From contig DUSO01000035.1 in assembly GCA_012842565.1 (NCBI GenBank), positions 1 to 35,910 on the forward strand: a stretch of DNA of 35,910 nucleotides. The letters are read 5' to 3'. The stretch is from Bacillota bacterium (lineage in GTDB: Bacteria; Bacillota; SHA-98; Ch115). The notes under the pieces are model-generated. The model was given only the letters and a program-made list of their open reading frames with translations. It did no database searches and had not been told where the DNA came from. Made by a program: the position numbers and the translations under genes. This document shows, piece by piece, positions 9,587 to 13,472 of the stretch (position 1 is its first letter; every line of letters begins with the position of its first letter).

Positions 9587-10036
9587 ATGGAGATGATCAC
9601 CATGAATCCCGGCCTTCCACAGAATGTCACGCGGGTATTGGGCCGCAAGGGGCGTGCGTGCGCGCTGGTCGTGGTTGACAGCCCATCCGGTCTTTCTGCG
9701 GCCCTTATAAACCTCATAGTGGCAAAGGACCATACTACAGTCAGGTTTGCCATGGAGCGTGAGGCCCCGCTATTTGAAAAGGTGGCAAACGGTCAGAGGG
9801 TGGCTATTCTTATAGCAGACGAGGGCAATATTGCGTGTTTCATCCGCGGGCACCCCCACGTGCTCAGGCTGGCCTGCAAAACCGATCCATCTTGGGCTAT
9901 AATAGAGGTTACAGTAGACGAAGTAGACGATATCACTATCCCTGATGCGGTTGTATCCTCCGGCATCAGGGTGTGTCAGAGGCGGGAGCGGGTTGACCTC
10001 GTCTCCCGCTCGGTCCTGGCGGAGCTCACCTCGTAA
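9587..10036 (+). CDS. Hypothetical protein, possibly split-barrel flavin-binding (PPOX-like)
   Basis: 149 aa ORF; weak resemblance (TVRFAMEREAPLFEKVANGQRVAILIADEGNIACFIRGHPHV); start may be ATG 9602. Confidence 0.55.
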   Translation: MEMITMNPGLPQNVTRVLGRKGRACALVVVDSPSGLSAALINLIVAKDHTTVRFAMEREAPLFEKVANGQRVAILIADEGNIACFIRGHPHVLRLACKTDPSWAIIEVTVDEVDDITIPDAVVSSGIRVCQRRERVDLVSRSVLAELTS

Positions 10037-10058
10037 GGACCTTGGGGGGTGGTCATGG

Positions 10059-10109
10059 ATGGGAGACTTTGTGCATCTTCACCTGCACACTGAGTACTCC
10101 CTCCTTTAG
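10059..10109 (+). other. dnaE: N-terminal dnaE PHP fragment ending at in-frame TAG
   Basis: ATG GGA GAC TTT GTG CAT CTT CAC CTG CAC ACT GAG TAC TCC CTC CTT TAG = MGDFVHLHLHTEYSLL*; same frame as the downstream 1114-aa ORF; GGGGGGTGG SD upstream. Confidence 0.9.
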
Positions 10110-10127
10110 CTAGATGGTGCGTGTAAA

Positions 10128-13100
10128 TTGGACAAGCTAATGGAGATGGCACTAGCAGCGGGCTATGATTCCGTTGCAATGACCGACCATGGGGTGCTCT
10201 TCGGCGCGGTCGAATTCTTTAAGACGGCAAAAAAGTATGGCGTAAAGCCCATAATCGGCTGCGAAGTCTACGTGGCGAAAAGGACAAGGCACGACCGTAC
10301 GCCGCGGGTGGATGAGGATCCCTATCACATGGTGTTGCTTGCAGCGGATGAGGCCGGTTATCGTAACCTGGTGCGCCTTTCTTCTATTGCGTTTACCGAG
10401 GGGTTTTACTATAAACCTCGCATCGACCGCGAGCTTCTCGAGAAGTATAACGAAGGCCTAATTGCAACTTCTGCATGTATTGCCGGGGAGATCCCGCAGC
10501 TCATCCTGGACGGCAACCTCGATGAGGCCAAGAAGAGAGCGCTATTTTATAAAGAGCTCTTCGGAGGGGACCGCTTCTTCCTGGAGATCCAGGACAATGG
10601 CATGAAGGCGCAGGATGAGGTTAACAGGGCCCTGGTGAATATGTCGAGGGAGCTTGAGATACCCCTTGTCGCCACCAACGATGTCCACTATATAGCTCGC
10701 GAGGATTCATCCTTTCACGATGTCCTTCTCTGTATCCAGACGGGGAAGTCGGTCGAAGACAAGGAAAGACTCCGCTTTCCAACCCAGGAGTTTTACTTTA
10801 AGTCGCCGCAGGAGATGGGGAGGCTCTTCTCCGGCGAGCTTGATATTGCCCTCAGGAATACGGTGGATATTGCCGAGCGGTGTAATTATGAGTTTACGTT
10901 TGGTCGGTCGCGCGTGCCCAGGTACCCCGTCCCCCCGGGATATACCGAGGAGACCTACCTGCGCGAGCTCTGCTTCCAGGGGGTAAGAAAGCGCTACCCC
11001 GAGGTCACTCAGGAGATTGAATCCAGGCTGAACTATGAGCTGGACGTTATCCAGCGCATGGGGTATTGCGGGTATTTTCTCATAGTCTGGGATTTTACGC
11101 ATTTTGCCAGGGAATCAGGGATATACGTCGGTCCCGGCCGCGGCTCTGCGCCGGGAAGCCTTGTGGCCTATTCCCTTGGCATTACGGACCTTGATCCTCT
11201 TAAGTATGGGCTTATCTTTGAGCGCTTTTTGAACCCCGAAAGAGTCAGTATGCCGGATATAGACGTGGACTTCTGTTACGAGAGGCGCCAGGAGGTCATT
11301 GATTATGTTACGCGCAAGTACGGGGAGGATAGGGTCGCACAGATAATTACATTCGGCACAATGGCCGCACGGGCGGCTATACGCGACGTAGGCAGGGCAT
11401 TGAACTTTCCATATGCCGAGGTTGACCGCATAGCGAAACTGGTCCCCGCAGAGCTGAATACGACCATCGACAAAGCCCTCGAAACCGCCCCTGACTTGAG
11501 GAAACTCTATGAAACCAGCGACCGGGTCAAGACCTTGCTGGATATGGCGAGGATGGTCGAGGGGATGCCCAGGCACGCGTCTGTTCATGCTGCCGGCGTA
11601 GTCATATCGGACATGCCCCTGGCAGAATATGTGCCGCTATACAGGACCTCTGAGGGAGCCATAACCACCCAGTACCCGATGGAGTCCTTGGAGAGCCTTG
11701 GCGTTCTCAAGATGGATTTCCTGGGCCTGCGGACCCTCACGATGATCGGCAAGGCAGTGGAGATCATTGAGGCCACCAGGGGCGACAAGGTGGATCTCTC
11801 CAAGCTCCCCCTGGATGACCCCGAGGTCTACCAGATGCTGTCTAGCGGGGATTCTATGGGAGTTTTCCAGCTGGAAAGCAACCTCTTCAAGGGCCTGCTC
11901 CGTGAGGTAAAGCCACAGTGTTTTGAGGACCTTATCGCAATCCTGGCCCTCGGTAGGCCGGGACCCATGAACCGTATTGAGGATTTTGTAAAGCAAAAGC
12001 ATGGCCTCGCGGAGATAAAATACCCGCACCCCAAGGTTGAGCCGATCCTCAAGGAGACCTACGGCATCATGCTGTATCAAGAACAGGTCATGATGGTCGC
12101 AAGTGCCCTCGCTGGGTTCTCTATGGGTGAGGCCGACCTGATGCGACGGGCGATGGGCAAGAAAAAACCTGAAGTGCTGGCCGGGTTGCGCAGTCGTTTC
12201 ATAGACGGGGCTGTCAAGGGCGGGGTATCCGAGGAAGTCGCAAGTGAGATATTTGACCTGATGGAATACTTCTCAGGATATGGCTTTAATAAGTCGCACA
12301 GCGCAGCTTACGCTCTGATATCCTACCAGACGGCGTATCTTAAGGCCCATTACCCGGTGGAGTTTATAGCCGCACTGCTCACCAGCGTATCCGGGAATAC
12401 TGACAAGGTAGCCTATTATATAGATGAATCTAGGCGCAAGGGCATCAAGGTGCTCCCGCCAGATGTCAACGAGAGCCTTACCGGGTTTACCGTGGTGCCC
12501 GGTGGCATACGGTTTGGTCTCGCGGCCGTAAAGAACGTGGGCCGCTCTGCTGTGGAGGCCATAATCGAGGCGCGGAAAAAGGCGAAGGGATTCAAAAACC
12601 TGATAGATTTCTGCGAGAAGGTTGACACTTCTGTCGTGACCAAGAAGGTAACGGAAAGCCTCATAAGGTGTGGTGCTTTTGACTATACCGGTGCGCGCCG
12701 GTCCCAGCTCTTGGCGATTCTGGACTCCGCATATGAGGCCGCGGCGGCCGGCAGGAGGAGGAAGGCGGATGGCCAGGTATCGTTCTTTGACCTGTTTGAG
12801 GAAAGGTCGGGATTCGCGTCCTATGACATACCGCTCCCGGACCTAGAGGAATTTTCGGAACGGGAACGCCTTGCGATGGAGAAGGAATTGCTCGGCCTGT
12901 ATATTTCCGGTCATCCCCTTAACCACGTCGCCGATGAGCTCAGGGCGAAGACCACGGCGACATGTGCGGTCTTGCCCGGGCTTGCGGACGGCACCGAGGT
13001 TGTCATCGGCGGCATAATCACAGCAATTAAGAAAATAGTGACCCGGAACGGCCAGCAGATGGCCTTTGTAACGCTTGAGGATCTCCGTGGTTCGGTGGAG

Positions 13101-13472
13101 GTGGTCATCTTCCCCAAGACCTATGAGCGGTATTCCAGCTTCCTGGGAGAAGATGTCATTGTCATAGTGCAGGGAAGGGTCGACAGCAAGGAAGACGAAG
13201 GGGTTAAGGTAATTGCAAATGAGGTCATACCCTTGACCAGAGAAAGCGTGCATATTATGCTTGATTCGAAAAAGCTCAATCAGAACCTACTTTCCGAGGT
13301 CAAGGGGGTATTGGATGGGCTCCGGGGCCCCAAGCCCGTATTCATCATTGTCAGGACAGGTGAGGGCAAAGCCGTCATATCTACGCCCCCCGATCTCTGG
13401 GTAGAGGATGCGGGCAGGGCTCGAAATGCCATGCGTGATCTACCGGGCATCAAGGTTATAGCGGCAGGCTAA
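10128..13472 (+). CDS. dnaE: DNA polymerase III alpha subunit, ORF downstream of the in-frame TAG
   Basis: MTDHGVLFGAVEF, GYCGYFLIVWDF, YVGPGRGSAPGSLVAYSLGITDLDPLKYGLIFERFLNPERVSMPDIDVDF, MGVFQLES, GYGFNKSHSAAYALISYQTAYLKAHYP. Confidence 0.97.
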   Translation: MDKLMEMALAAGYDSVAMTDHGVLFGAVEFFKTAKKYGVKPIIGCEVYVAKRTRHDRTPRVDEDPYHMVLLAADEAGYRNLVRLSSIAFTEGFYYKPRIDRELLEKYNEGLIATSACIAGEIPQLILDGNLDEAKKRALFYKELFGGDRFFLEIQDNGMKAQDEVNRALVNMSRELEIPLVATNDVHYIAREDSSFHDVLLCIQTGKSVEDKERLRFPTQEFYFKSPQEMGRLFSGELDIALRNTVDIAERCNYEFTFGRSRVPRYPVPPGYTEETYLRELCFQGVRKRYPEVTQEIESRLNYELDVIQRMGYCGYFLIVWDFTHFARESGIYVGPGRGSAPGSLVAYSLGITDLDPLKYGLIFERFLNPERVSMPDIDVDFCYERRQEVIDYVTRKYGEDRVAQIITFGTMAARAAIRDVGRALNFPYAEVDRIAKLVPAELNTTIDKALETAPDLRKLYETSDRVKTLLDMARMVEGMPRHASVHAAGVVISDMPLAEYVPLYRTSEGAITTQYPMESLESLGVLKMDFLGLRTLTMIGKAVEIIEATRGDKVDLSKLPLDDPEVYQMLSSGDSMGVFQLESNLFKGLLREVKPQCFEDLIAILALGRPGPMNRIEDFVKQKHGLAEIKYPHPKVEPILKETYGIMLYQEQVMMVASALAGFSMGEADLMRRAMGKKKPEVLAGLRSRFIDGAVKGGVSEEVASEIFDLMEYFSGYGFNKSHSAAYALISYQTAYLKAHYPVEFIAALLTSVSGNTDKVAYYIDESRRKGIKVLPPDVNESLTGFTVVPGGIRFGLAAVKNVGRSAVEAIIEARKKAKGFKNLIDFCEKVDTSVVTKKVTESLIRCGAFDYTGARRSQLLAILDSAYEAAAAGRRRKADGQVSFFDLFEERSGFASYDIPLPDLEEFSERERLAMEKELLGLYISGHPLNHVADELRAKTTATCAVLPGLADGTEVVIGGIITAIKKIVTRNGQQMAFVTLEDLRGSVEVVIFPKTYERYSSFLGEDVIVIVQGRVDSKEDEGVKVIANEVIPLTRESVHIMLDSKKLNQNLLSEVKGVLDGLRGPKPVFIIVRTGEGKAVISTPPDLWVEDAGRARNAMRDLPGIKVIAAG

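Follow-up and report, generated by a model that had tools for sequence, protein, structure and literature searches.

A proposed programmed in-frame stop hop in dnaE, the replicative polymerase gene of two sister bacterial classes

In-frame stop hops were obtained in synthetic E. coli constructs in which, as summarised in a 2016 review, nine nucleotides specify one amino acid (Weiss et al. 1987, cited in PMC5009743). According to the same summary the stop in these constructs is flanked by matched or near-matched codons, and the product is two residues shorter than that of readthrough (PMC5009743). The review suggested that in-frame stop hopping might underlie some supposed readthrough, and knew of no occurrences (PMC5009743). 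The dnaE gene (DNA polymerase III alpha) described here resembles the constructs in its flanking codons and in its predicted product, but they are artificial whereas dnaE is natural, conserved and chromosomal. A programmed in-frame stop hop, in which nine nucleotides are read as a single leucine, is probably how this gene is expressed and, if true, would make dnaE the first natural case known of a "stop hop"; no report of a stop hop in dnaE was found in the literature searched, whose coverage leaves out most subscription journals. The wider reading, that two classes constitutively make their essential replicative polymerase by a natural, ancient and programmed stop hop, which may also set or regulate the level of DnaE, is put forward with somewhat more belief than doubt.

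Three further systems invite comparison. T4 gene 60 shares with dnaE a stop immediately 3' of its take-off codon, and its re-pairing at a similar codon and its 5' stem-loop before take-off have proposed counterparts in dnaE (PMC5009743, PMC11194080). The gap in gene 60 is 50 nucleotides compared to six in dnaE, its stem-loop at the take-off codon and A site and its KKYK-like peptide signal were not found in dnaE, and dnaE differs further in resuming in the zero frame and in landing codons that are often two-of-three matches. The byp elements of Magnusiomyces capitatus mitochondria resemble the proposed hop as short inserts removed by the ribosome with a sometimes imperfect match of take-off and landing (PMC5009743), but there are 81 of them in a mitochondrial genome as opposed to one fixed 6-nucleotide insertion in one bacterial gene. 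The +1 frameshift of RF2 (prfB) at CTT TGA C also places a leucine P-site codon beside a stop, and one of the dnaE genes (that of genome G001) reads CTT TGA C, yet dnaE is without a Shine-Dalgarno sequence 3 nucleotides upstream and continues downstream in the zero frame. A +1 shift in dnaE was rejected, as frame 0 continues while the +1 frame stops at 10111-10113, meeting TAG one codon on in both the genome studied here (G000) and G001. The prfB genes of these two genomes, suspected of holding a second recoding site, carry the usual RF2 +1 shift site with TGA; it reads CTT TGA C in G001 (contig C3, L178) and CTT TGA A, with an unusual fourth base, in G000 (contig C11, L179).

The window is the whole stretch of DNA that was analysed, 35,910 nucleotides of contig DUSO01000035.1 from a Bacillota bacterium. 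Its dnaE, a single locus and the sole match to the DnaE family in the genome, is interrupted after 16 codons by an in-frame TAG, and the codons before the stop are in the frame of the 1114-aa ORF that follows. The features of the locus are as follows.

10044-10049, plus strand: GGGGGG Shine-Dalgarno-like run, a AGGGGGTGGT-type element also found 5' of most other stop-bearing dnaE genes
10059-13472, plus strand: dnaE, complete save for the in-frame stop (TIGR00594, 1395.8 bits spanning the stop)
10059-10106, plus strand: 16 pre-stop codons from the ATG, encoding MGDFVHLHLHTEYSLL with the metal ligands of HxH; purifying selection acts on them
10061-10101, plus strand: predicted mRNA hairpin, GGGAGACTTTGTGCA pairing with TGCACA..GAGT.CTCCC, 3' end 2 nucleotides before the take-off codon
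10104-10106, plus strand: proposed take-off codon CTT (Leu)
10107-10109, plus strand: in-frame stop TAG; the 12 homologues have TAG or TGA here
10110-10112, plus strand: proposed landing codon CTA, predicted to be undecoded
10113-10115, plus strand: resume codon GAT, by alignment the PHP Asp zinc ligand equivalent to Asp23 of M. tuberculosis DnaE1
10113-13472, plus strand: rest of dnaE, open through to its end
10128-10142, plus strand: internal-start candidates TTG and ATG, judged not to be starts (no Shine-Dalgarno sequence, unconserved, preceded by conserved residues)

The two-codon insertion TAG CTA sits within the invariant HxHTxYSLLDGA motif of the PHP domain, where it separates HxH from the Asp that is the next metal ligand. 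A preliminary description of the window gave correct positions (ATG 10059, TAG 10107-10109, TAGCTA 10107-10112, TTG 10128, ATG 10140), and the GGGGGG run it mentioned is at 10044-10049. Its account of a stop within an insertion that adds two codons to the PHP domain and preserves the frame of the 1114-aa ORF is borne out. The palindrome it saw in TAGCTA is present at 10107-10112 but is incidental; the homologous hexamers differ (TGACTA, TAGCTT, TGACTG, TGATTG, TGAATG, TGACCG, TGAGTG and TAGGTG). Immediately 5' of dnaE lies a 149-aa ORF (9587-10036) without a Pfam match.

Among 399 genomes of the phylum, 13 from nine genera and two sister classes of uncultured bacteria carry a stop plus one codon at exactly this site, the stop being TGA in nine genes and TAG in four. 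In the window's own class (class A) these are G000 with TAG, G001 of the same family with TGA, and G002 and G003 of another family of the same order, both with TAG; 13 genomes of the class-A family f3 are without the insertion. The first pattern search of the 399 genomes gave three more cases in the distant class B, where a protein search found the interruption in every searched genome of families f63 and f74 (n = 9, eight TGA and one TAG); the one genome of family f38 with a match is without it. A broader pattern, allowing any landing codon and TGG, returned exactly the same 13 from the 399 genomes, with neither TAA nor TGG in the stop slot, while the reversed pattern used as a control had no matches. 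None of the other contig loci carrying the motif has the interruption, and where about 130 kb of these genomes hold further stops flanked by matched codons, these are, judged from translations, intergenic or off the coding frames. No insertion separates HxH from Asp in any of the 101 stop-less homologues whose motif is recognisable, which come from many phyla. In DnaE trees the two classes are sister groups (support 100/98) and each divides into a stop-bearing and a stop-less clade; the history is either one gain with two exact 6-nucleotide losses or two gains. The stop-bearing clades of the two classes are about 61-63% identical to each other.

The pattern of substitution is strong evidence that ribosomes cross the stop, which they very probably do. 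Codons 2-11 before the stop show no amino-acid differences within class A at a codon identity of just 62%, and in the first ten codons after it 7% of residues differ at a codon identity of 36%, which is purifying selection on both flanks. Ahead of the earliest possible internal start, the residues that follow the stop are likewise conserved while their codons change synonymously, class A being the clearest case. Because residues are kept despite codon change, both the upstream HxH and the DGACKL stretch, located after the stop but ahead of any internal start, are selected as protein. All nine PHP ligands are retained in the 13 stop-bearing genes. YSLLDGA is restored exactly when the stop and the codon after it are deleted, and with the skipped nucleotides removed the motif region aligns without gaps to solved DnaE structures. 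The spacing of HxH and Asp is fixed in 101 of 101 homologues, and therefore only the removal of both codons yields the standard spacing. The Asp in question corresponds to D23 of M. tuberculosis DnaE1, a zinc ligand whose D23N variant is without exonuclease activity (PMC5636811).

The codons flanking the stop also share bases. In all 13 genes the stop lies immediately 3' of the leucine take-off codon, and the landing codon shares three of three bases with it in four genes and two of three in nine, never fewer. Class A has CTT as take-off codon and CTA, CTA, CTT and CTT as landing codons; class B has CTG, with landings at CTG (two genes), TTG, ATG (three), CCG and GTG (two). The third bases are thus clade-specific, T then A or T in class A and G then G in class B. 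All landing codons are single-step neighbours, so shared ancestry contributes to the similarity, even though synonymous positions in the rest of the gene have diverged widely (about 45% codon identity). The amino acid at the landing position varies between L, M, V and P amid invariant neighbours, as would be expected if the landing codon were untranslated. Two points tell against a hop: nine of the 13 landing codons are only two-of-three matches, of which CCG would need a central mismatch, and a hydrophobic landing residue would also fit readthrough. The 13 genes form a natural set of variants in take-off, stop and landing codons.

The hop may proceed as follows. The ribosome would translate 16 codons and halt with TAG in the A site and its peptidyl-tRNA-Leu paired to CTT; in place of termination, the tRNA would leave CTT while the mRNA slides by 6 nucleotides, a movement perhaps aided by a hairpin re-forming behind the ribosome. 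The tRNA-Leu would then re-pair at CTA and decoding restart at GAT (Asp, GAY across the set), and CTT TAG CTA would thus be read as one leucine, giving a normal uninterrupted DnaE (...TEYSLLDGAC...). From the sequences we infer each of three elements of this scheme: a product without the two codons, the action of the hairpin and the efficiency of the hop. A stop-to-sense mutation would lengthen the PHP metal site by two residues, and the stop would therefore be locked in unless exactly 6 nucleotides were deleted, an event which may have occurred in the two stop-less sister clades. Putative regulation of DnaE dose is another possible reason for its retention. The locus poses the puzzle of an essential gene that has acquired a stop and retained it from a time before the divergence of families, perhaps of classes.

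Two candidate cis signals precede the stop. The nine class-B genes all have the same four codons before it, TAC TCC CTC CTG, which rank first in constraint among 681 four-codon intervals, whereas the same interval in the stop-less family f3 ranks 500 of 734. The hairpin predicted at 10061-10101 of the window has a free energy of -19.4 kcal/mol (folded over 10059-10106). Measured against GC3-matched synonymous randomisation, mean z for the hairpin between start and take-off is -2.84 in class A, -1.80 in class B, 0.04 in f3 and 0.22 in 88 other homologues (p = 2.8e-8, a value that ignores relatedness), and excess predicted stability is seen in stop-bearing dnaE genes only. Part of the complementarity is dictated by the encoded amino acids and is also present in some f3 genes. 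By analogy with T4 gene 60, the predicted hairpin, ending just 5' of the take-off codon, would be the likely cis stimulator of the hop. The synonymous freeze and the predicted hairpin overlap, and they could instead serve to control initiation; the predicted hairpin covers the start codon and adjoins the Shine-Dalgarno sequence. The 16 pre-stop residues, compared for a nascent-peptide signal, are conserved, equally so in stop-less dnaE. Conserved structure 3' of the stop was found in genus g191 only and is not general. Shine-Dalgarno pairing with CTCCCTCCT before the stop was also considered; it is possible, with support no better than for the start-codon hairpin.

Ribosomal protein L9 restrains hopping in E. 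coli. Its loss was rejected as the cause of hopping since L9 occurs in stop and stop-less genomes alike, being missing only from one low-completeness genome of the stop-less family f38. One rplI gene (G211:C99:21062-21452; L270, L271) matches as two overlapping pieces, either through a frameshift or an assembly error.

The main rival of the stop hop is programmed readthrough, in which a near-cognate or dedicated tRNA would decode TAG or TGA and DnaE would gain X plus L, M, V or P between HxH and Asp. Speaking for it are the identical reading frame on either side of the stop, the L, M, V or P codons after it in 13 of 13 genes, TAG and TGA as the sole stops found and the selection showing that the stop is crossed. 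Readthrough would however violate the spacing kept in the 101 homologues and leaves the similarity of take-off and landing unexplained; the base after the stop is unconserved (C, T, A or G), there is no sense mutant (TGG) among the 13 genes, and an anticodon for TAG or TGA is absent from the 49 tRNA matches of G001, whose stop is TGA, and from the tRNAs recovered from G000, although misreading by a near-cognate tRNA is conceivable. Readthrough is on this evidence unlikely, though a serious contender. A longer loop between HxH and Asp is not impossible, because standalone PHP proteins differ in this spacing. The two readings predict peptides two residues apart in an essential gene, the tryptic peptide across the junction being GDFVHLHLHTEYSLLDGACK under the hop and GDFVHLHLHTEYSLL-X-LDGACK under readthrough.

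Pyrrolysine or selenocysteine as a common principle is ruled out, as each clade contains both TAG and TGA and neither could explain the whole set. For the same kind of reason the amber readthrough offered by the preliminary description is not the common principle, nine of the 13 genes carrying TGA, and the amber suppressor tRNA it advised looking for is found neither in G001 nor among the G000 tRNAs recovered; the stop hop, which fits best, is missing from the mechanisms it listed. Reassignment of the stops was likewise rejected: TAG ends eight and TGA 14 of 25 long ORFs in the window, both also terminate long ORFs in G001-G003, and the prfB shift sites of G000 and G001 use TGA as well. G001 has five tRNA-Leu, with anticodons TAG, TAA, CAA, CAG and GAG. 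Two tRNA-Trp candidates were dismissed as suppressors, the extra one of G001 being a truncated copy and the second one of G000 a different variant that G001 does not have. The former (L239, G001:C2:30419-30485) has its 3' half intact and resembles the attachment site of an integrated element; the latter (L154, G000:C3:864-934) is an odd, low-scoring tRNA with its anticodon called as CCA, unlike normal tRNA-Trp.

Termination after a 16-aa peptide and reinitiation at the next codon, giving a DnaE without HxH that is perhaps complemented by the peptide, is improbable. It draws on the NTG codon that follows the stop in eight of nine class-B genes, six of these being common bacterial starts, but five of the 13 genes, the window's among them, have CTA, CTT or CCG there, and in these the reinitiation raised by the earlier description fails. 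No Shine-Dalgarno sequence precedes this codon, the sequence being the pyrimidine-rich CTCCCTCCT; the 16 upstream residues match those of ordinary DnaE and are maintained through synonymous change, and in class A residues 5' of any internal start are conserved. The TTG and ATG further downstream had been described as lacking a clear Shine-Dalgarno sequence, and rightly; neither is conserved and conserved residues lie 5' of both, nor do relatives use a shorter DnaE start.

Replicases are needed in low copy, and the stop might regulate a low-level product, through an abortive 16-aa peptide, a start-codon hairpin or control at the mRNA level, with DnaE arising by unprogrammed leakage. The predicted hairpin over the start codon and beside the Shine-Dalgarno sequence speaks for such regulation, which however predicts neither the class-specific pattern of take-off and landing nor the exact two-codon size, and it is very improbable. 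An assembly error, pseudogene or strain variant is barely credible even though G000 is a draft of 199 contigs, because the same codon is interrupted in 13 independently assembled genomes (among them the public DUMQ01000037.1, 'Bacillota bacterium isolate AS04akNAM_80', L108) against no control matches in 399, the remaining gene is open and conserved, and the four class-A genomes hold dnaE only. The polC or second dnaE that the preliminary description advised seeking was not found: dnaE is the sole C-family polymerase found in these four genomes, with no PolC above the cut-off in G000, and loss of PHP function covered by PolC is further contradicted by the nine ligands kept in all 13 genes.

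Annotation pipelines would probably label this replicative polymerase a pseudogene or misplace its start. A AGGGGGTGGT(C)-like element lies 5' of the start codon in most stop-bearing dnaE genes of both classes (L002-L005, L216-L224) and is absent upstream of the f3 and f38 genes. Elsewhere in the window, a DUF2600 protein (PF10776; 5533-6741) adjoins a polyprenyl synthetase (PF00348; 6779-7867), a pair that suggests long-chain terpene synthesis.
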